A stretch of 64,000 bases of DNA from Comamonas resistens (lineage in GTDB: Bacteria > Pseudomonadota > Gammaproteobacteria > Burkholderiales > Burkholderiaceae_C), in NCBI RefSeq assembly GCF_030064165.1, contig NZ_CP125947.1, positions 2,852,001 to 2,916,000 on the forward strand, written 5' to 3'. The translations under genes were made by a program, and so were the position numbers. Below are positions 55,202 to 63,714 of the stretch, one piece after another (position 1 is the stretch's first letter; each line of letters begins with the position of its first letter). The notes under the pieces are model-generated. The model made no database searches and was not told the origin of the DNA. It saw nothing but the letters and a program-made list of their open reading frames with translations.

Positions 55202-56055
55202 GCCGCCCGGCCGTTCCGAAGGCTCATAGCACCGCAGCGCATCAGCGCGAAGGTACCCCAGTGAGCGAGCCTTCGGTCTCCCCTCTTCTTCAGGCCCAGG
55301 CATTGCACTGGAAGGCCGCCGCCGCGCATATCGTGCGCGACATCAGCCTGCAGGTGAGCCGTGGCGAATTCGTGGGTTTGCTGGGCCCCAACGGCAGTGG
55401 CAAGTCCACGCTGCTGCGCATGATCTACCGCATCCTCAGACCCGCCAGCGGCACGGTCTGTATGCAGGAGCGCGACGTCTGGCGGCACAGTGCCCGCGAC
55501 AACGCCCGTGCCATGGCCGTGCTGGCACAGGAAAATGCCAACGAGTTCGATCTGCGCGTGCGCGATGTGGTGCTGATGGGACGCACGCCGCACCAAAGCG
55601 CCTTTGACAAAGACAGCGCGCAAGACTTTGCCATCGTCGCCCAGTCGCTGGCGCGAGTGCAGGCCCAGCCACTGGCCGAGCGCATGTTTTCCACCCTCTC
55701 GGGCGGTGAAAAGCAGCGCGTGCTCATGGCCCGCGCACTGGCCCAGCAGGCACCGCTGCTGGTGCTGGATGAGCCCACCAACCACCTCGACGTGCGCCAC
55801 CAGTTCGAGCTGATGAATCTGATTCGCGGCCTGAGCCTGACCACTTTGGCCGCTCTGCACGAGCTGCCGCTGGCCGCGCATTACTGCGACCGCATCTACC
55901 TATTGCAGCACGGTGCACTGGTGGCGCAAGGCACTCCGACCGAGGTGCTGACGCCCGAGACCATTGCCCGTGTCTACGGCGTGCGCGCCCAGGTGCACAC
56001 CAGCGCACGCACGGGCAAGCCCGTGATCGAATTCATGCCGGATGAGCTGCTATGA
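55198..56055 (+). CDS. btuD: Corrinoid ABC transporter, ATP-binding protein (BtuD-like)
   Basis: 285 residues. Walker A GPNGSGKST in GEFVGLLGPNGSGKSTLLRMIYR, signature FSTLSGGEKQRVLMARALAQ, Walker B LLVLDEPTNHLDV and the switch His in LAALHELPLAAHYCD. Start ATG 55198 overlaps the permease stop; GTG 55261 is a possible shorter start closer to the domain. The stop overlaps the next gene (ATGA). Confidence 0.93.
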   Translation: MSRPAVPKAHSTAAHQREGTPVSEPSVSPLLQAQALHWKAAAAHIVRDISLQVSRGEFVGLLGPNGSGKSTLLRMIYRILRPASGTVCMQERDVWRHSARDNARAMAVLAQENANEFDLRVRDVVLMGRTPHQSAFDKDSAQDFAIVAQSLARVQAQPLAERMFSTLSGGEKQRVLMARALAQQAPLLVLDEPTNHLDVRHQFELMNLIRGLSLTTLAALHELPLAAHYCDRIYLLQHGALVAQGTPTEVLTPETIARVYGVRAQVHTSARTGKPVIEFMPDELL

Positions 56056-56882
56056 CCCAGACCTGCACTGAGCCCACGCCCTCTTTACCTGCAGCCAACG
56101 CCTGCCTGGCCATCGTGGTGCTCAGCCGCGGTGCGGCCTATGCGGGCGGCCTGACGGAACTGAGCGACCTGGCAACACAGCTTGAGGCGCGGCTGGCCGC
56201 TGCACAAACGCCCGTGCTGCGTGTGCAACCCGCCTTTGTGGACCGAGCACAGCCTGCCCTGCCCGAAGCGCTGGACCTGTGCGCCGATGCCGATCAGATA
56301 TTGATCCTGCCCGTCATGGTGCCCGACGAGCCTTCGCTGCGCCGCTGGCTGCACAAGCTCATCATGCGCTGGCGCGCCAAGCAACAGGCTGGAGGGCAAA
56401 CCGGCAAACACGCCCCTCGCATCGTGTTTGCTCAACCCCTGCTGCAGTTGCCGGCGTTGGCCGAGCTGCTGGCCGCCACCATTCCCAGCGCGCTGCAGCA
56501 GCCCGATGTGCCGCAATTGCTGGCCGATGAAGACTGGGAGCGCGACCCCAAAGCCTGGTCCCAAGTGCCGGAGCACCAGCACCATGTGCTGTGGTGCGTG
56601 GGCCCGCGCTGCGCGGCCAAGGGAGCCGTCGCGCTGTGGCCGCAACTGGCACGCACCGTGCAGCAAACCCCGCTGCTCAAAAAGCAGGTGATGCTGCTGC
56701 AAACCAGCTGCCAGTACCCGTGCAACCACGGCCCGCTGATGATCGCCTACCCCGAAGGCGTGTGGTACGGCCCCATGGATGCCGCGACGATCGAGCCCGT
56801 GCTGACAGCCCATGTCCAGCAGCAGGACTGCCCTCACGAACACCTGCGCGTGCATGGACCACAGCCCGCACTGCACGAATAA
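56052..56882 (+). CDS. CbiX-like chelatase fused to a (2Fe-2S) thioredoxin-like ferredoxin domain
   Basis: 276 residues. The N-terminal ~140 resemble a CbiX/CbiK-type sirohydrochlorin cobaltochelatase half (LAIVVLSRGAAYAGGLTELSDLA, VQPAFVDRAQPALPEAL, ADQILILPVMVPDEPSL). The C-terminal ~100 are a thioredoxin-like [2Fe-2S] ferredoxin: VLWCVGPRCAAKGA, then LLQTSCQYPCNHGPLMIAYPEGVWYGPM, giving four cluster Cys. Similar fusions are known in cobalamin loci. The protein may insert or handle Co2+ with a redox centre. It lies between btuD (ATGA overlap) and cobW. Confidence 0.8.
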   Translation: MTQTCTEPTPSLPAANACLAIVVLSRGAAYAGGLTELSDLATQLEARLAAAQTPVLRVQPAFVDRAQPALPEALDLCADADQILILPVMVPDEPSLRRWLHKLIMRWRAKQQAGGQTGKHAPRIVFAQPLLQLPALAELLAATIPSALQQPDVPQLLADEDWERDPKAWSQVPEHQHHVLWCVGPRCAAKGAVALWPQLARTVQQTPLLKKQVMLLQTSCQYPCNHGPLMIAYPEGVWYGPMDAATIEPVLTAHVQQQDCPHEHLRVHGPQPALHE

Positions 56883-56930: not shown

Positions 56931-57986
56931 ATGCAAACCACCAAAATTCCCGCCACCATCGTCACCGGCTTTCTCGGCAGCGGCAAGACCACCTTGATGC
57001 GCCATATTCTCGAGCAGGCCAAGGGCCTGCGCGTGGCGGTCATCGTCAACGAGTTCGGCGAACTGGGCATTGACGGCGAAATCCTCAAGACCTGTGCCAT
57101 AGGCTGCAAGGAAGAAGGCGGCGCGGATACACAGTCGGGCCAGATCTACGAGCTGGCCAACGGCTGCATGTGCTGCACCGTGCAAGAAGAGTTCTTCCCC
57201 GTCATGAAAGCCCTGGCCGAGCGCCGCGCCGACATCGATGTGCTGCTGATCGAGACCAGCGGCCTGGCCCTGCCCAAGCCCCTGGTCCAGGCCTTCCAGT
57301 GGCCCGACATCGCCAATGTCTTCACTGTCGATTCGGTAGTCACCGTGGTCGATACGCCCGCTGCGGCTGCCGGCCAGTTTGCCCATGACCCCCATGCCGT
57401 CGATGAACAGCGCCAGGCCGACCCCAATCTGGACCATGACGCCAGCCTGCATGAGCTGTTCGAGGATCAGCTCTCGGCCGCCGATCTGGTGGTGCTGTCC
57501 AAGGCCGATCTGGTCACGCCCGAGCAGCTCGGCCAGGTGCGCGCCATGGTGGCCGAAGAAGTACCGGCCAGCGTGAAGATGATCGAAGCCGTGCAGGGCC
57601 AGGTGCCGCTGAACGTGCTGCTGGGCCAGCATCGCGCCGCCGAGCTGTCGATCGACGACAAGCACAGCCACCATGACCATGACGAAGACCATGACCACGA
57701 TGCCTTCGACTCCCTGCACCTGGACCTGGGTGCCGTGGACCGTGAGCGCCTGATGCTAGCGTTGCAAGCCATCGTGGAGCAACATGGCGTGCTGCGCGTC
57801 AAGGGCTTTGCCGCTCTGCCTGGCAAGAAGATGCGTCTGCTGGTGCAAGGCGTGGGCCGCCGCTTTGATGCCTATTTCGACCGTGCCTGGGCCGACGGCG
57901 AAGCTACGGCCACGCGTCTGGTGTTTATCGGCAAGCAGCTGGACGCCGCCGTGCTGCGCCAGGCCTTGCTGGGCGCCCAGGCATAA
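56931..57986 (+). CDS. cobW: Cobalamin-biosynthesis GTPase CobW (metallochaperone)
   Basis: 351 residues of the COG0523 G3E GTPases. P-loop TGFLGSGKT (12-20), metal motif GCMCC (Cys79, 81, 82), GTP motifs LLIETSGLALP and SKADL, a His/Asp-rich loop HSHHDHDEDHDHD, and the CobW C-terminal domain (VLRVKGFAALPGKKMRLLVQGVGRRFDAYFDRAW). CobW loads Co2+ for CobN-type chelation, and cobN follows 63 bases downstream. Ribosome site GGAGAG. Confidence 0.95.
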   Translation: MQTTKIPATIVTGFLGSGKTTLMRHILEQAKGLRVAVIVNEFGELGIDGEILKTCAIGCKEEGGADTQSGQIYELANGCMCCTVQEEFFPVMKALAERRADIDVLLIETSGLALPKPLVQAFQWPDIANVFTVDSVVTVVDTPAAAAGQFAHDPHAVDEQRQADPNLDHDASLHELFEDQLSAADLVVLSKADLVTPEQLGQVRAMVAEEVPASVKMIEAVQGQVPLNVLLGQHRAAELSIDDKHSHHDHDEDHDHDAFDSLHLDLGAVDRERLMLALQAIVEQHGVLRVKGFAALPGKKMRLLVQGVGRRFDAYFDRAWADGEATATRLVFIGKQLDAAVLRQALLGAQA

Positions 57987-58049: not shown

Positions 58050-61000
58050 ATGCACCTGCTCAGCTCCCGCCCCGGCGGCTTTGTCGAAGACGACAGCATC
58101 ATCACCCGTCTGGACCAGACGCCTGCCGACATGGTGGTGCTCAGTTCCGCCGACACCACGCTGTCGCTACTGGCCGATGCCTACCGGATGTGGCTGCAGG
58201 CCGAGCCCCGGGCCGCTGGGTCCACGCCCACGCTGCGCCTGGCCAACCTGCTGCATCTGCGCCAGAGCGCCTCGCTCGATCTGTATATCGACGAGGTGCT
58301 GCAGCATGCCAGGCTGGTCATCGTCGATCATCTGGGAGCCGAGTCCACCTGGCCCTACGGCATAGAGCAGCTGCAAAAGCTGGCGCGCCGCAAGGGCCAG
58401 AAGCTGGCCATGTTCTCTGGCGACAACCAGGAAGATCCCGAGCTGCTGGCCAAGGGCACGCTTGAGCCCGAGCAAAGCCGTGCGCTGTGGCAATACCTGC
58501 GCGCCGGCGGCCTGGGCAATGCACGCGAGTTCCTGCGCATGGCTGCGGCCTGGGGCCTGAACCTGGGCCGCGAGGGCGCGCCCGTGCGGGTGCTGCCCCC
58601 CGTGGCCGTGCATGTGCCGCAAAGCTGGCTGGATGACGCTGCAGGACATCTTCCGGGCCTCGACGACCTGCAGGCCCGCTGGACGCCCGGCGCCCCCGTG
58701 GCCATGCTGGTCTTCTACCGCTCGCATCTGCTGGCGGCCAATACCGAGGCCTTCGATGCCATGGCCGACGCCCTGCTCGCACGTGGCCTGAACCCGCTTC
58801 CGCTGGCCCTGGAGTCGCTCAAGGACGGGCTGTGCCTGCAGACGCTGCGCTCACTGTGCATCACCCACCAGGTGCAGATCATTCTCAACACCACGGCGTT
58901 TGCGGCTCTCGGAGAACATGCGCGCACCGGCGAGGCGTCCGACGCGCTGGCGGGCGACATTCCCGTGCTGCAGGTGATTGCCAGCGGCAGCAACCGCGAG
59001 GACTGGCTGGCCGACAGCCAGGGCCTGCGCCCGCGCGACATTGCCATGCAGGTGGTGCTGCCCGAGATGGATGGCCGCATCATGACGCGCGCCATGAGCT
59101 TCAAGGGCCTGGCCCATCGCTGCGAGCTGACGCAGACCGATGTGATCAGCTACCAGGCCGAGCCCGACCGCATCACCTGGATTGCCGAGCTGGCCTGGCG
59201 CTGGTGCCGGCTGCGCAGCAAGCCTGCGGCGCAGAAGAAGGCCGCGCTGATACTGGCCAACTACCCGGGCAGCGAAGCACGGATGGGCAGCGGCGTGGGC
59301 CTCGATACACCCGAGTCCGTCATGGCCCTGCTGGAACAGCTGGCGCGCGATGGCTGGAACCTGGGGGATGCCTCCGCCCTGCCGGCATCGGGTCTGGCGC
59401 TGATGAAGCAGTTGCAGCAAGGCATTGCCAATGACCCCAAGAAATGGCCGCAGCGCCCTGCAAGCCAGGGCTATTCGCTGCAGGCCTATCAACAGCGCCT
59501 GGCACAGCTGCCCGGCGATATGGCCCAGACCATCGCCGAGCGCTGGGGGACGCCCGAGCAAGACCCCATGCTGCGCGATGGCTGGTTCATGATTGCGGGT
59601 CTGCAGCTGGGCCATGTCTTCGTGGGCATACAGCCTGCGCGCGCTCTCGATGGACGCAATGACTACGCCAGTTACCACGACGCCGAGCTGGTGCCGCCCC
59701 ATCACTATCTGGCGTTCTACTTCTGGCTGCGCGATGTATTCGGCGTGGACGCCATGGTCCATGTGGGCAAGCATGGCAATCTGGAATGGCTGCCGGGCAA
59801 GAGCCTGGCGCTGTCGCAGCAATGCTGGCCCGATGCCATTCTCGGCCCGCTGCCGCATGTCTATCCCTTCATCGTCAACGACCCCGGCGAAGGGGCGCAG
59901 GCCAAGCGCCGCAGCCAGGCCGTAATCATCGACCATCTGATGCCGCCGCTCACGCGCGCCGAAAACCACGGCCCCATGCAGGAGCTGGAACGTCTGGTGG
60001 ACGAATACTACGAAGCCCTGCTGGTCGACCTGCGCCGCTCCAGCCTGCTGCGCAAGCAGATTCTGGACTGCGCCAGACAGCAGGATCTGCTGCGCGAGCT
60101 AGGCCTTGAAGCTGCGGGCGCGCAACCCGATGCCGACGAGCAGTTGCTGGAACGCATCGATGCCTATCTGTGCGAACTCAAGGAAACCCAGATTCGCGAT
60201 GGCCTGCATATCTTTGGCCATTCGCCCGAAGGCGCTCTGCGCGACTCCACGCTGCTCTCGCTGGCGCGCTATCCGGGCAGTGGTGGCAACGAGCAGGGCC
60301 TGCTCAACGCACTGGCCGCCGACCTGCTGCCGGCCATGGACTGGAACCCGCTGGACATGGATGCCGCCGCGCCCTGGAACGGCCAGCGTCCGGCCGTGCT
60401 GCAGCAGCAGGACGCCGGCACCTGGCGCCACGGCGGCGACACGCGCGAGCGGCTCGAGCTGCTGGCCCTGCAGGTCATAGCCCGGCCCGGACTAGCCCGC
60501 AGCTGGCCGCACACACTACAAGTGCTGACGCGCATAGAGCAGCAGATTGCACCGTCACTGGACGCCTGCGGCCCGCAGGAGCTGCTGCAGTTCTCGCGCG
60601 CACTGCAAGGGCTCTTTGTGCCGCCCGGGCCCAGCGGCTCACCCTCGCGCGGGCGCTGCGACACCTTGCCCACGGGGCGCAACTTCTACACCGTGGACAC
60701 CCGCGCCATACCCACCCAGACCGCCTGGGCGCTGGGGCAGCAGTCCGCACAGCGCCTGCTGGAGCGCTATCTGCAGGAGCATGGCGAATATCCTCAGGCC
60801 ATCGGTCTTTCCGTCTGGGGCACGGCCACCATGCGTACCGGCGGTGACGATATCGCCCAGGCATTTGCCCTGATCGGGGTGCGTCCCAAATGGGCCGCCG
60901 GCAGCCAGCGCGTGACCGACTTTGAAGTCATTCCCGCCGTGGGCCTGCGCCGCCCGCGCATCGATGTGACGCTGCGTATCAGCGGCTTCTTCCGCGATGC

Positions 61001-61886
61001 CTTTCCCAACGTGGTGCAGATGTTCGATGCTGCGGTACGTGCTGTGGCCGAGCTGGATGAGGACGCCGAGGACAATCCCATCCGCGCGCGCGTGCTGCGG
61101 GATACGCAGGCTGCCGTGGATCAAGGCCTGAGCGCCGACGCGGCTCGCGAACAGGCGCTGTGGCGCGTATTCGGATCGCCCACCGGCAGCTATGGTGCCA
61201 GCATGCATGAGCTGCTGCGTACCGGCCAGTGGACCGATGCGGGCGACTTTGCACGCCACTATCTGGACTGGGGCGCCTATGCCTACGGCCAGCAGGCCGA
61301 TGGCGTGCCGGCCCGCGCCGCGCTGGAGCGGCGTCTGCAGGCACTCGATGTGGTGCTGCAGAACCAGGACAGCCGCGAGCATGACCTGCTGGACTCCAGC
61401 GAGTACTACCAGCATCAGGGCGGCATGGTGGCGGCCGTGCGGTACCTGGGCGGAGCCGAGCCTGCCGTCTATCACGGCGACCATGGCAATCCTCAGTCGG
61501 CCAGAATTCGCTCCCTGGCCGAGGAGATCGGCCGCGTGGTACGCGCCCGCGTCACCAACCCCAAGTGGATTGCCGGCGCCATGCGCCACGGCTACAAGGG
61601 CGCCTTCGAGATGGCGGCGACGGTGGACTATCTGTTCGGCTTCGATGCCACCACCGCGCTGGTCTCGGACCAGCATTACGCCATGGTCACCCAGGCCTAT
61701 GTCGAAGACGAGAACGTGCGCCAGTTTCTGCGCCAGCAAAATCCTCAGGCGCTTGGCGATATCGTCTCGCGCCTGCTGGAAGCCATAGACCGTGGCCTGT
61801 GGGAGCAGCCCGGCGAGCATCGCCAGAGCCTGCTGGCCCAGATGCTGGAGCACGAAGAATTCATGGAAGGACAGGTTTCCCAATGA
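58050..61886 (+). CDS. cobN: Cobaltochelatase large subunit CobN
   Basis: 1278 residues, the usual size of CobN. It holds the porphyrin/corrin substrate and metal in aerobic cobalt insertion. Recognisable parts: VHVGKHGNLEWLPGKSLALSQQCWPD, FIVNDPGEGAQAKRRSQAVIIDHLMPPLTRAE, TLPTGRNFYTVDTRAIPTQTAWALG, GVRPKWAAGSQRVTDFEVIP and the C-terminal ITTALVSDQHYAMV-like region. It works with AAA+ and VWA subunits, here encoded by the overlapping next gene (ATGA at 61883) with a frameshift. No dedicated cobS or cobT is present in the window. Confidence 0.96.
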   Translation: MHLLSSRPGGFVEDDSIITRLDQTPADMVVLSSADTTLSLLADAYRMWLQAEPRAAGSTPTLRLANLLHLRQSASLDLYIDEVLQHARLVIVDHLGAESTWPYGIEQLQKLARRKGQKLAMFSGDNQEDPELLAKGTLEPEQSRALWQYLRAGGLGNAREFLRMAAAWGLNLGREGAPVRVLPPVAVHVPQSWLDDAAGHLPGLDDLQARWTPGAPVAMLVFYRSHLLAANTEAFDAMADALLARGLNPLPLALESLKDGLCLQTLRSLCITHQVQIILNTTAFAALGEHARTGEASDALAGDIPVLQVIASGSNREDWLADSQGLRPRDIAMQVVLPEMDGRIMTRAMSFKGLAHRCELTQTDVISYQAEPDRITWIAELAWRWCRLRSKPAAQKKAALILANYPGSEARMGSGVGLDTPESVMALLEQLARDGWNLGDASALPASGLALMKQLQQGIANDPKKWPQRPASQGYSLQAYQQRLAQLPGDMAQTIAERWGTPEQDPMLRDGWFMIAGLQLGHVFVGIQPARALDGRNDYASYHDAELVPPHHYLAFYFWLRDVFGVDAMVHVGKHGNLEWLPGKSLALSQQCWPDAILGPLPHVYPFIVNDPGEGAQAKRRSQAVIIDHLMPPLTRAENHGPMQELERLVDEYYEALLVDLRRSSLLRKQILDCARQQDLLRELGLEAAGAQPDADEQLLERIDAYLCELKETQIRDGLHIFGHSPEGALRDSTLLSLARYPGSGGNEQGLLNALAADLLPAMDWNPLDMDAAAPWNGQRPAVLQQQDAGTWRHGGDTRERLELLALQVIARPGLARSWPHTLQVLTRIEQQIAPSLDACGPQELLQFSRALQGLFVPPGPSGSPSRGRCDTLPTGRNFYTVDTRAIPTQTAWALGQQSAQRLLERYLQEHGEYPQAIGLSVWGTATMRTGGDDIAQAFALIGVRPKWAAGSQRVTDFEVIPAVGLRRPRIDVTLRISGFFRDAFPNVVQMFDAAVRAVAELDEDAEDNPIRARVLRDTQAAVDQGLSADAAREQALWRVFGSPTGSYGASMHELLRTGQWTDAGDFARHYLDWGAYAYGQQADGVPARAALERRLQALDVVLQNQDSREHDLLDSSEYYQHQGGMVAAVRYLGGAEPAVYHGDHGNPQSARIRSLAEEIGRVVRARVTNPKWIAGAMRHGYKGAFEMAATVDYLFGFDATTALVSDQHYAMVTQAYVEDENVRQFLRQQNPQALGDIVSRLLEAIDRGLWEQPGEHRQSLLAQMLEHEEFMEGQVSQ

Positions 61887-63055
61887 GCACCAACCACGAT
61901 CCGGCACCCGTATTTCCACTCTCGGCCATACAAGGCCAGCCCGCGCTGGTGCAGGCCTTGCTGCTGGCTGCGATAGAGCCGCAGCTGGGAGGCGTGCTGA
62001 TCCAGGGCCCGCGCGGCACGGCCAAGTCCACGGCGGCCCGTGCGCTGGCAGATTTGCTGACGCCAGCGCCCTTCGTCACCCTGCCGCTAGGTGCCTCCAT
62101 CGAGCATGTGACCGGCAGCCTGGACCTGTCCAAAGCTCTGGCGGGCCATGAAGTGGCTTTTGCGCCGGGCCTGATCGCCAAGGCGCACGAAGGGGTTCTC
62201 TATGTCGATGAGATCAATCTGCTGCCCGATGCCATCGTCGATGTGCTGCTCGATGTGGCAGCCTCCGGCATCAATCGCATAGAGCGCGACGGGATCTCGC
62301 ACAGCCATGCGGCGCGCTTTGTGCTGGTCGGCACCATGAACCCCGAGGAAGGCATGCTGCGCCCCCAGTTACTGGACCGGCTGGGCCTGTGCGTGCAGCT
62401 GGACAATGCCCAGGATCCGCAGCTGCGCAGCAGCATTGTCAAGGCCAGGCTGCGCTTTGACCTGGACCCCCAGGGCTTTGCCCAGGCCCATGCCGCGCAG
62501 CAGCAGGAAATACGCACACGCTTGCAGCAGGCCCGCGCCCGCAGTCAAGATGCGACGCAACTGCCCTGGAGCGATGCCGTGCACGAAGCCGTGGCCCGGC
62601 AATGCATTGCGGCCCAGGTCGACGGCATGCGCGCCGACCTGGTCATGTTGCGTGCCGCCCGTGCTCTGGCAGCCTGGCAGGGCAGCTCGGCCATTACAGC
62701 CGAGCATGTAAGCGAGGTTGCGCCGCTGGTGCTGCAGCACCGCGCGGCCGAGTCCCGACAATCCGTTGCCAGCCAGGCTCCCCAGCCAGTGCCGCCCGCC
62801 GAGCCGCCAAATCCAGCTACAAGCCCTGCCACAAGCCCGACCAACCAAGGCCCTCGCACGGAATCGGCAGCAGACCGCTCATCGCCATCCCCTGCCCCCG
62901 CGCAGCAGGACATGAACCAGCCGCCTCCCGGCTGGGGCCGACCACTGCCGGTTGCCACCGTCTCTTTTGACAGCAGCCAGGCCGATGCCATGGCCCAGGC
63001 TGCCATGGAGGCCCTGGCCGCAAAAAAAGCCCGCGCCCCCGGCCAAAGCATTTAG
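61883..63055 (+). CDS. Chelatase AAA+ subunit (ChlI/ChlD N-terminal part), short zero-frame product
   Basis: 390 residues in the zero frame. AAA+ motifs: Walker A GPRGTAKS (42-49), Walker B GVLYVDE (104-110), FVLVGTMNPEEGMLRPQLLDRLGLCV (arginine region) and a C-terminal lid, then a Pro/Ser-rich linker (about 320-355). It resembles the ChlI/BchI small subunit and the N-terminal half of ChlD. The zero frame ends at TAG 63053-63055 shortly after an A7 run, while the expected VWA half continues in the -1 frame. So this frame alone would give the small chelatase subunit, and frameshifted ribosomes give the medium one. It starts inside the cobN stop (ATGA). Confidence 0.92.
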   Translation: MSTNHDPAPVFPLSAIQGQPALVQALLLAAIEPQLGGVLIQGPRGTAKSTAARALADLLTPAPFVTLPLGASIEHVTGSLDLSKALAGHEVAFAPGLIAKAHEGVLYVDEINLLPDAIVDVLLDVAASGINRIERDGISHSHAARFVLVGTMNPEEGMLRPQLLDRLGLCVQLDNAQDPQLRSSIVKARLRFDLDPQGFAQAHAAQQQEIRTRLQQARARSQDATQLPWSDAVHEAVARQCIAAQVDGMRADLVMLRAARALAAWQGSSAITAEHVSEVAPLVLQHRAAESRQSVASQAPQPVPPAEPPNPATSPATSPTNQGPRTESAADRSSPSPAPAQQDMNQPPPGWGRPLPVATVSFDSSQADAMAQAAMEALAAKKARAPGQSI

Positions 63056-63085
63056 TCGCTGCAGCGCAGCGCAGCAGCCGGGGGC
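63007..63085 (+). promoter_or_regulatory. Programmed -1 frameshift signal in the ChlD-type gene
   Basis: Internal GGAGG (63007-63011), 10 nt before the slippery heptamer A AAA AAA (63022-63028, zero-frame codons GCA AAA AAA). A 6-nt spacer follows, then a perfect 9-bp stem GCCCCCGGC (63035-63043) / GCCGGGGGC (63077-63085). The zero-frame TAG (63053-63055) is in the loop. The -1 frame is open from before this point to 63714. Each element matches the known bacterial design (as in dnaX). Confidence 0.88.
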
Positions 63086-63714
63086 CAAGCACGGCAGCGC
63101 CGCATGGCCTGGCCACCACCAGCCTTGCCGCAAGATCAGGTGGCGCCCAGATCGACTGGCCGGCCAGCTTGCGCGCGCGCCAAGCCCTGCCGCTGGCGGC
63201 CGAGCATCTGCGCTGGCGCCAGCCCCAAGGCCGCAGCAGCAGCCAGCACCTGTTCCTGCTGGACTGCTCGGCTTCCATGGTCGAGAGCTGCGCCTTTGCC
63301 CGGGCCAAGGGACTGCTGCTGCAATGGCTGCGCTGGGCTTATCTGCGGCGCGAATGCGTGGCCCTGCTCTGTTTTGGTGCAGGTCAGACCCATTGGCTGC
63401 TGCAGCCCACCCGCGCGCCGCGCTGGAATGCCGAGCTGATCGAGCCCCTGCCGGGCGGTGGCGGCACCCCTCTGGCCGCCGCGCTGCGGACAGGCTGGGA
63501 CATGGCCGCCCGGCACGGGCAGCGACCGTCCTGCCTGTGGGTCATCAGCGACTTTCGCAGTCCCGATGTGCTGCAGCTGGAACGTCAAGCCGACCCAGGA
63601 CTGTCCCAGATCTGGGTGGATTGCGAATCGGTATCCGCAAACTCCTTGAAGCCGTTCGAGGGCGCAGAGCGTTTGAGCCAAGCCTGGCCTGCGTCCTTCA
63701 GGCTCACGCTTTGA
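63028..63714 (+). CDS. VWA-domain half of the ChlD-type chelatase subunit, reached by -1 frameshift
   Basis: 228 codons read after slippage at 63028; the full product, join(61883..63028,63028..63714), is 610 residues. It starts with a basic Pro/Arg/Ala linker (SPRPRPKHLVAAAAQRSSSRG), then GAQIDWPASLRARQAL, conserved before the VWA fold in this family. The VWA domain has the MIDAS signature LFLLDCSASM (DxSxS), the Thr in LPGGGGTPLAAAL and Asp in LWVISDFRSPD. No ATG or GTG exists in this frame before the IDWP motif; the only start-like codon, TTG 63169, would cut it off and has no ribosome site. The VWA half therefore depends on frameshifting. It bridges the AAA+ ring and CobN. Confidence 0.85.
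   Translation, partial: SPRPRPKHLVAAAQRSSRGPSTAAPHGLATTSLAARSGGAQIDWPASLRARQALPLAAEHLRWRQPQGRSSSQHLFLLDCSASMVESCAFARAKGLLLQWLRWAYLRRECVALLCFGAGQTHWLLQPTRAPRWNAELIEPLPGGGGTPLAAALRTGWDMAARHGQRPSCLWVISDFRSPDVLQLERQADPGLSQIWVDCESVSANSLKPFEGAERLSQAWPASFRLTL

Follow-up and report, generated by a model that had tools for sequence, protein, structure and literature searches.

The E. coli dnaX gene carries an A_AAA_AAG slip site preceded by an SD-like element and followed by a stem, and encodes both the short and the long subunit of a single AAA+ complex, the shifted product being the short one. For chelatases, Antonov is said to have reported in 2020 that programmed frameshifting in chlD genes near cobN gives small and medium cobalt chelatase subunits. 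Antonov 2013 (PMC3711429) groups 23 magnesium-chelatase frameshift genes, one from Delftia among them, into one cluster, notes that such genes have been annotated as two neighbours, and describes E. coli reporters that frameshifted at 63, 40, and 10%, the 10% with A_AAA_AAA. According to Atkins 2016 (PMC5009743), purifying selection acts on A_AAA_AAR, and the stems vary and show a purine/pyrimidine bias; the triplex idea also comes from that paper. Kuznetsov 2022 (PMC9227772), which cites Antonov 2020, gives a CobNST interpretation. The frameshift mechanism is prior art for the fs-chlD family, and since it is already published, the gene described here is a sound, well-conserved member of a known family. 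No frameshift case from Comamonas appeared among the titles and abstract openings listed for this gene; the Chelatase DB or supplements may hold one.

We analyzed a stretch of 64,000 nt from Comamonas resistens (contig NZ_CP125947.1, positions 2,852,001 to 2,916,000), here called the window and numbered from its first letter. Toward its end, the gene order is a TonB-type receptor, a periplasmic binding protein, ABC permease and ATPase genes (assigned by eye), a gene weakly matching ferredoxin-like proteins, cobW, cobN, and fs-chlD. Directly before cobW, positions 56052–56882 encode a protein whose C-terminal ferredoxin-like region scored 43 bits against NF041612, below the cut-off of 150, and a Pfam scan of this protein gave no match. 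The genes and motifs of the locus are as follows.

56931..57986, forward strand: cobW (TIGR02475, 483.1 bits; cut-off 332.1)
58050..61886, forward strand: cobN, large chelatase subunit, 1278 aa (TIGR02257, 1510.8 bits; cut-off 822.05)
61883..63055, forward strand: zero-frame ORF, ChlI-like AAA+ ATPase, 390 aa, the predicted short product
62006..62032, forward strand: residues GPRGTAKST in the zero-frame ATPase, read from the translation
63028..63714, forward strand: −1 frame extension of 228 residues, linker and VWA domain (PF05762, PF13519)
63262..63276, forward strand: residues DCSAS of the VWA domain, read from the translation

The window shows the fs-chlD layout, in which the frame of a ChlI-like ATPase is continued by a −1 frame encoding a VWA domain. 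The zero-frame ORF starts at ATG 61883, overlapping the cobN stop in an ATGA (61883–61886), and ends at TAG 63053–63055. It contains PF17863, PF01078, and PF07728, matches BchI among PDB sequences (1g8p, E 2.9e-74), and carries the Walker A (P-loop) residues GPRGTAKST. The −1 frame is closed by TGA 63712–63714; its VWA half matches BchD (2x31_A, E 6.5e-9) and has DCSAS as its MIDAS-type motif. Residues 1–382 joined to the −1 extension would give a predicted long product of about 610 aa. Because the two halves match successive parts of a single NCBI model, the putative cobaltochelatase TIGR02442 (profile positions 86–367 for the ATPase half and 441–583 for the VWA half), we regard them as two halves of one ChlD-type protein; scanned separately, they scored 379.4 and 68.5, respectively, the curated cut-off for the fused form being 779.45. 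The junction between the frames holds the following elements.

63007..63011, forward strand: SD-like GGAGG, 10 nt before the A7 run
63022..63028, forward strand: slippery heptamer A_AAA_AAA, in frame as GCA AAA AAA GCC
63029..63034, forward strand: 6-nt spacer GCCCGC
63035..63043, forward strand: 5′ arm of the stem, GCCCCCGGC, a putative stimulator (covariation among relatives)
63053..63055, forward strand: zero-frame stop TAG in the stem loop
63077..63085, forward strand: 3′ arm of the stem, GCCGGGGGC, a putative stimulator (covariation among relatives)

Rereading by script confirmed the two frames as the earlier note had drawn them, with the ATPase frame running from 61883 to TAG 63053 and the VWA half in −1 to 63714, and every junction element (GGAGG, the 10-nt distance, A7, the 6-nt spacer, the 9-bp stem, and the TAG in its loop) was found at its claimed position. 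The stem arms are exact reverse complements of 9 bp, 33 nt apart. With the fs-chlD family the gene shares the −1 ATPase/VWA overlap, the A_AAA_AAR site, and a downstream stem with a pyrimidine-rich 5′ arm. It resembles dnaX in site, SD-like element, and stem, but the shifted product is the short one in dnaX and the long one, as predicted, in fs-chlD.

The window by itself did not suffice to reject a chance origin. A7 occurs six times on its two strands against 1.82 expected (4 of 100 shuffles had as many), and the single-sequence fold of the junction is only mildly special (z = −1.41). Chance was rejected by the comparative tests: A7 alone is not rare enough, and we place the junction beyond chance because it is conserved among relatives.

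Relatives were collected by a search of genome contigs with the ATPase half, from which we took the best 80 of 499 loci. Among these best 80, the C half lay in the −1 frame in 67, in frame in 6, and in +1 in 2 (L027, with A6, and L075, with Ns), and was not found in 5. An in-frame A_AAA_AAR was present in 65 of the 67 −1 loci; the exceptions were L030, with A_AAA_AAC, and L081, which really consists of two separate genes. Within the window's genus, the C half was found at E 1e-10 in 40 of 53 genomes, and the 39 readable junctions (L116 by eye; L124, from genome G014, was unreadable) were all −1 with an exact A7. For the tests below we used 96 distinct junctions, the window's own included, obtained from 106 by removing L061, L081, and 8 duplicates. 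Two loci stood apart. In L027, from Variovorax sp. E3, the junction has A6 and its frame is broken, through faulty assembly or a genuine loss. In L014, from Acidovorax sp. SUPP3334, the halves are fused in frame and the A run is absent, while its Paracidovorax sister L032 has A7 and the −1 layout; the fused gene is likely a recent escape from frameshifting.

A_AAA_AAN was found in all 96 junctions, as AAAAAAA in 90, AAAAAAG in 5, and AAAAAAC in 1. The run had exactly seven A in 83, nine in 6, and eight in 1, and six followed by G or C in 6. Because the best-matching 3′ arm is picked row by row, shuffles and swapped arms served as controls for the stem scores. Averaged over the junctions, the score of the best 8-bp stem was highest at a spacer of 6 (7.46 vs. 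5.88, sd 0.08, in 60 shuffles), and 82 of the 96 junctions, whose related rows are not independent, scored at least 7 there (shuffle mean 13.3, maximum 21). The 14 junctions below 7 at this spacer include stemless, AT-rich A9 rows (L058, L062, L067, L069, L074, and L078). When each of the 36 distinct 5′ arms was represented once, its own pairing reached at least 7 in 67%, compared with 10% of 1074 swapped pairings. Stem pair 4 occurs as CG, UG, UA, GC, and AU, that is, as five standard types, indicating compensatory change. The purine/pyrimidine bias of the arms is broken in Burkholderia-type arms (GCCATCGA).

The position of the zero-frame stop divides the family. It follows the heptamer by 3 nt in 79 of the 96 junctions, by 24 nt in 16, and by 15 nt in one (L045), and the 16 junctions with the 24-nt stop form a single clade in the tree (support 100/100), which contains the window. 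In this Comamonas clade the stop sits at the same position in 16 of 16 junctions (TGA in 11, TAA in 3, and TAG in 2), inside the loop of the stem, and the spacer reads GCC CGN in all 16, whereas 54 of the 79 other junctions have GCC TGA. The clade also differs from the family in its SD-like GGAGG, which stands at a spacing of 10 in 15 of 16 junctions (L082 has GGAAG). Those 15 are modest evidence, because Glu is encoded by GAG in 180 of 264 codons elsewhere in the clade. GGAGG as a family-wide stimulator is unsupported, since an SD-like four-mer at a spacing of 10 or 11 occurs in just 20 of the 79 other junctions. Of the two stimulators originally proposed, then, the stem is widespread and the SD-like element characterizes the Comamonas clade. 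One small new detail is that a Comamonas clade has its stop displaced by 21 nt into the hairpin loop; this looks like a single relocation of the stop together with the gain of the SD-like element.

Synonymous sites were compared in the same 16 junctions. Synonymous difference at the junction was 0.057 compared with 0.356 over the whole gene (610 codons), the lowest value for any 11-codon window that had more than 300 comparisons. The slip-site Lys codons are AAA in 32 of 32 cases, compared with 18 of 75 elsewhere in the zero-frame part, and the codons GCA AAA AAA are retained in 16 of 16. Conservation in relatives, which the earlier note had put forward as its test, was strong for heptamer and stem, with covariation in the stem and a synonymous minimum at the junction.

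We then considered the partner of the two products. Among the 53 genus genomes, cobN (above cut-off) and fs-chlD occur together in 39 and are both missing from 13; the remaining genome, G014, gave a weak partial hit only. Downstream of cobN, the VWA half follows within 2 kb in 38 of the 39; in the other, the contigs are split. In the 76 loci with a C half (from the best 80 of 499, window included), cobN was upstream in 64, within 150 nt in 62; it was not found near fs-chlD in 8, and 4 had too little flanking DNA. Five aerobic corrin genes of the window's own genome (cobF, cobM, cobJ, cobI, and cobH) scored above their cut-offs; for cobL the CbiT part was above and the CbiE part just below, cobG was below, and cobK was read by eye only. 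Cobalt chelation is plausible because the genome carries these genes, and the idea that the B12 route is absent, which would make the chelatase odd, was rejected for this genome on the same grounds. Four genus genomes (G005, G017, G018, and G038) keep cobN and fs-chlD while neither CobH nor CobJ was found in them. A search of the own genome for a second close ChlI-like gene found none (next match E 6e-6, 26 bits); PF01078 also hit six weaker places and one 316-bit, YifB-looking place. Each of the 14 other frameshift genomes examined likewise had its ChlI-like gene at one place. The co-occurrence and adjacency of cobN, the corrin genes, and the lack of another close ChlI-like gene in this search make a cobaltochelatase role most likely for fs-chlD.

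Taken together, we assign a probability of about 0.9 to programmed −1 ribosomal frameshifting in fs-chlD that gives CobN partners of ~390 and ~610 residues. This was the reading of the earlier note, and it is borne out by the heptamer, the covarying stem, the synonymous minimum, and the co-occurrence with cobN. Ribosomes would translate the ATPase half, possibly by translational coupling to cobN at the ATGA overlap, and at A_AAA_AAA some would shift into the −1 frame, stimulated by the stem that begins after the 6-nt spacer and, in the Comamonas clade, by pairing of the upstream GGAGG with 16S rRNA. Nonslipping ribosomes would end at TAG 63053 and release a ChlI/CobS-like ATPase of ~390 residues; slipping ribosomes would make the ATPase–VWA protein of ~610 residues (ChlD/CobT-like). 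Both products would join CobN as an aerobic cobaltochelatase. The analysis shows the junction elements with their conservation and covariation, the domain identities, the link to cobN, and the corrin genes of the genome; we infer that slippage occurs and at what efficiency, that both products are stable, and that cobalt is the metal. The roles proposed here, small (ATPase) and medium (ATPase–VWA) beside CobN, are those of CobS and CobT in the aerobic cobaltochelatase, but CobS and CobT are two genes, whereas fs-chlD is one gene with sequences of the ChlI/ChlD type, as the BchI and BchD matches indicate.

The alternative that survives best, though we consider it unlikely, accepts the frameshift and holds that the enzyme is not, or not only, a cobaltochelatase, CobN being served by a distant CobS/CobT-like pair. 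The claim that there is no separate cobS/cobT is true of the stretch that was read, but the genome has such a pair elsewhere (L112:6442-9377, own genome C1 about 3.990–3.993 Mb, minus strand). Its CobT-like gene exceeds the PF06213 cut-off (57 vs. 26.1 bits), and the four genus genomes that have cobN and fs-chlD and lack CobH and CobJ also speak for this alternative. Against it, both genes score below their curated NCBIfam cut-offs (CobS-like, 492 bits vs. 558.55; CobT-like, 283 bits vs. 759.05), and the pair adjoins xsc, a pta-like gene, an IclR-like regulator, and taurine ABC genes. CobS-like genes occur in 18 of the 53 genus genomes, 16 with cobN and 2 without; because they are missing from 23 of the 39 cobN genomes and present in two that lack cobN, they do not track cobN, whereas fs-chlD is present in 39 of 39. 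The pair is possibly an AAA+/VWA activator unrelated to B12. The genome also encodes another CobN-like protein, divergent and 1594 aa long (L125:7038-11822, C1 about 4.111–4.116 Mb, minus strand), whose neighbours (ZnuA, ABC-3, ExbB-like, a TonB receptor, FUR-family, and CobW) indicate a zinc-uptake setting.

Fused in-frame homologues bear on whether CobN needs two products. They make up 6 of the best 80 of 499 loci and imply at least four changes on the tree, in which some branches are long, so that fusion may be ancient in parts of it. A second ChlI-like or CobS-like gene was not found in four of the six fused genomes, several of which are drafts or MAGs. A single fused protein may be sufficient in some lineages, or the assemblies may be incomplete; if the former, two products may not be strictly needed.

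A less probable explanation places the slip in transcription, with RNA polymerase slipping on the A run so that a share of the mRNAs carries the other frame. The site is a homopolymer, and A9 (6/96) and A8 (1/96) rows occur. However, 83 of 96 junctions have exactly seven A, and the six whose six-A run ends in G or C can still serve as ribosomal slip sites but are poor polymerase slip sites, for which the threshold is about 8–9 A. The covarying stem at a fixed 6-nt spacing also fits mRNA on the ribosome.

We give marginally less credence still to two separate proteins, the VWA half having its own start or being reached by ribosomes that reinitiate past the TAG. Some −1-frame ATG or GTG lies within −60 to +90 of the slip in 26 of 96 junctions, and L081 has truly separate genes. 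The VWA half of the window had been described as lacking a usable start; within −60 to +90 of the slip this holds for ATG, GTG, and TTG, but the first such codon of the open −1 frame, TTG 63169, exists 31 codons before DCSAS. Across the 96 junctions, only 9 have within that interval a start with an SD-like sequence in front, and separate starts leave the heptamer, the stem, and the synonymous minimum unexplained. That a single chlD gene was split by an error in sequencing or by a genuine inactivating indel has next to no probability: the A run does differ by one base in places (L027, with A6 and a broken frame), but the same −1 layout and the same A7 are found in 16 of 16 distinct clade junctions.

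With the stop in the loop, each nonshifting ribosome of the Comamonas clade would melt the hairpin on its way to termination, and the proportion of short and long product may then depend on hairpin refolding and the SD-like element. We suggest, tentatively and with more doubt than belief, that the cassette of this clade was rebuilt once, the old stop being lost, the loop stop fixed, and the SD-like element gained, and that hairpin refolding and the SD-like element may set the subunit ratio there, unlike in the rest of the family. The clade, with its changed stop and SD-like element, is a natural variant for studying how the termination site and hairpin melting affect the frameshift ratio. More generally, cobS/cobT homologues in a genome need not serve CobN, and fs-chlD of C. 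resistens is a clear and well-conserved example in which a single gene is expected to yield two metal-chelatase subunits.
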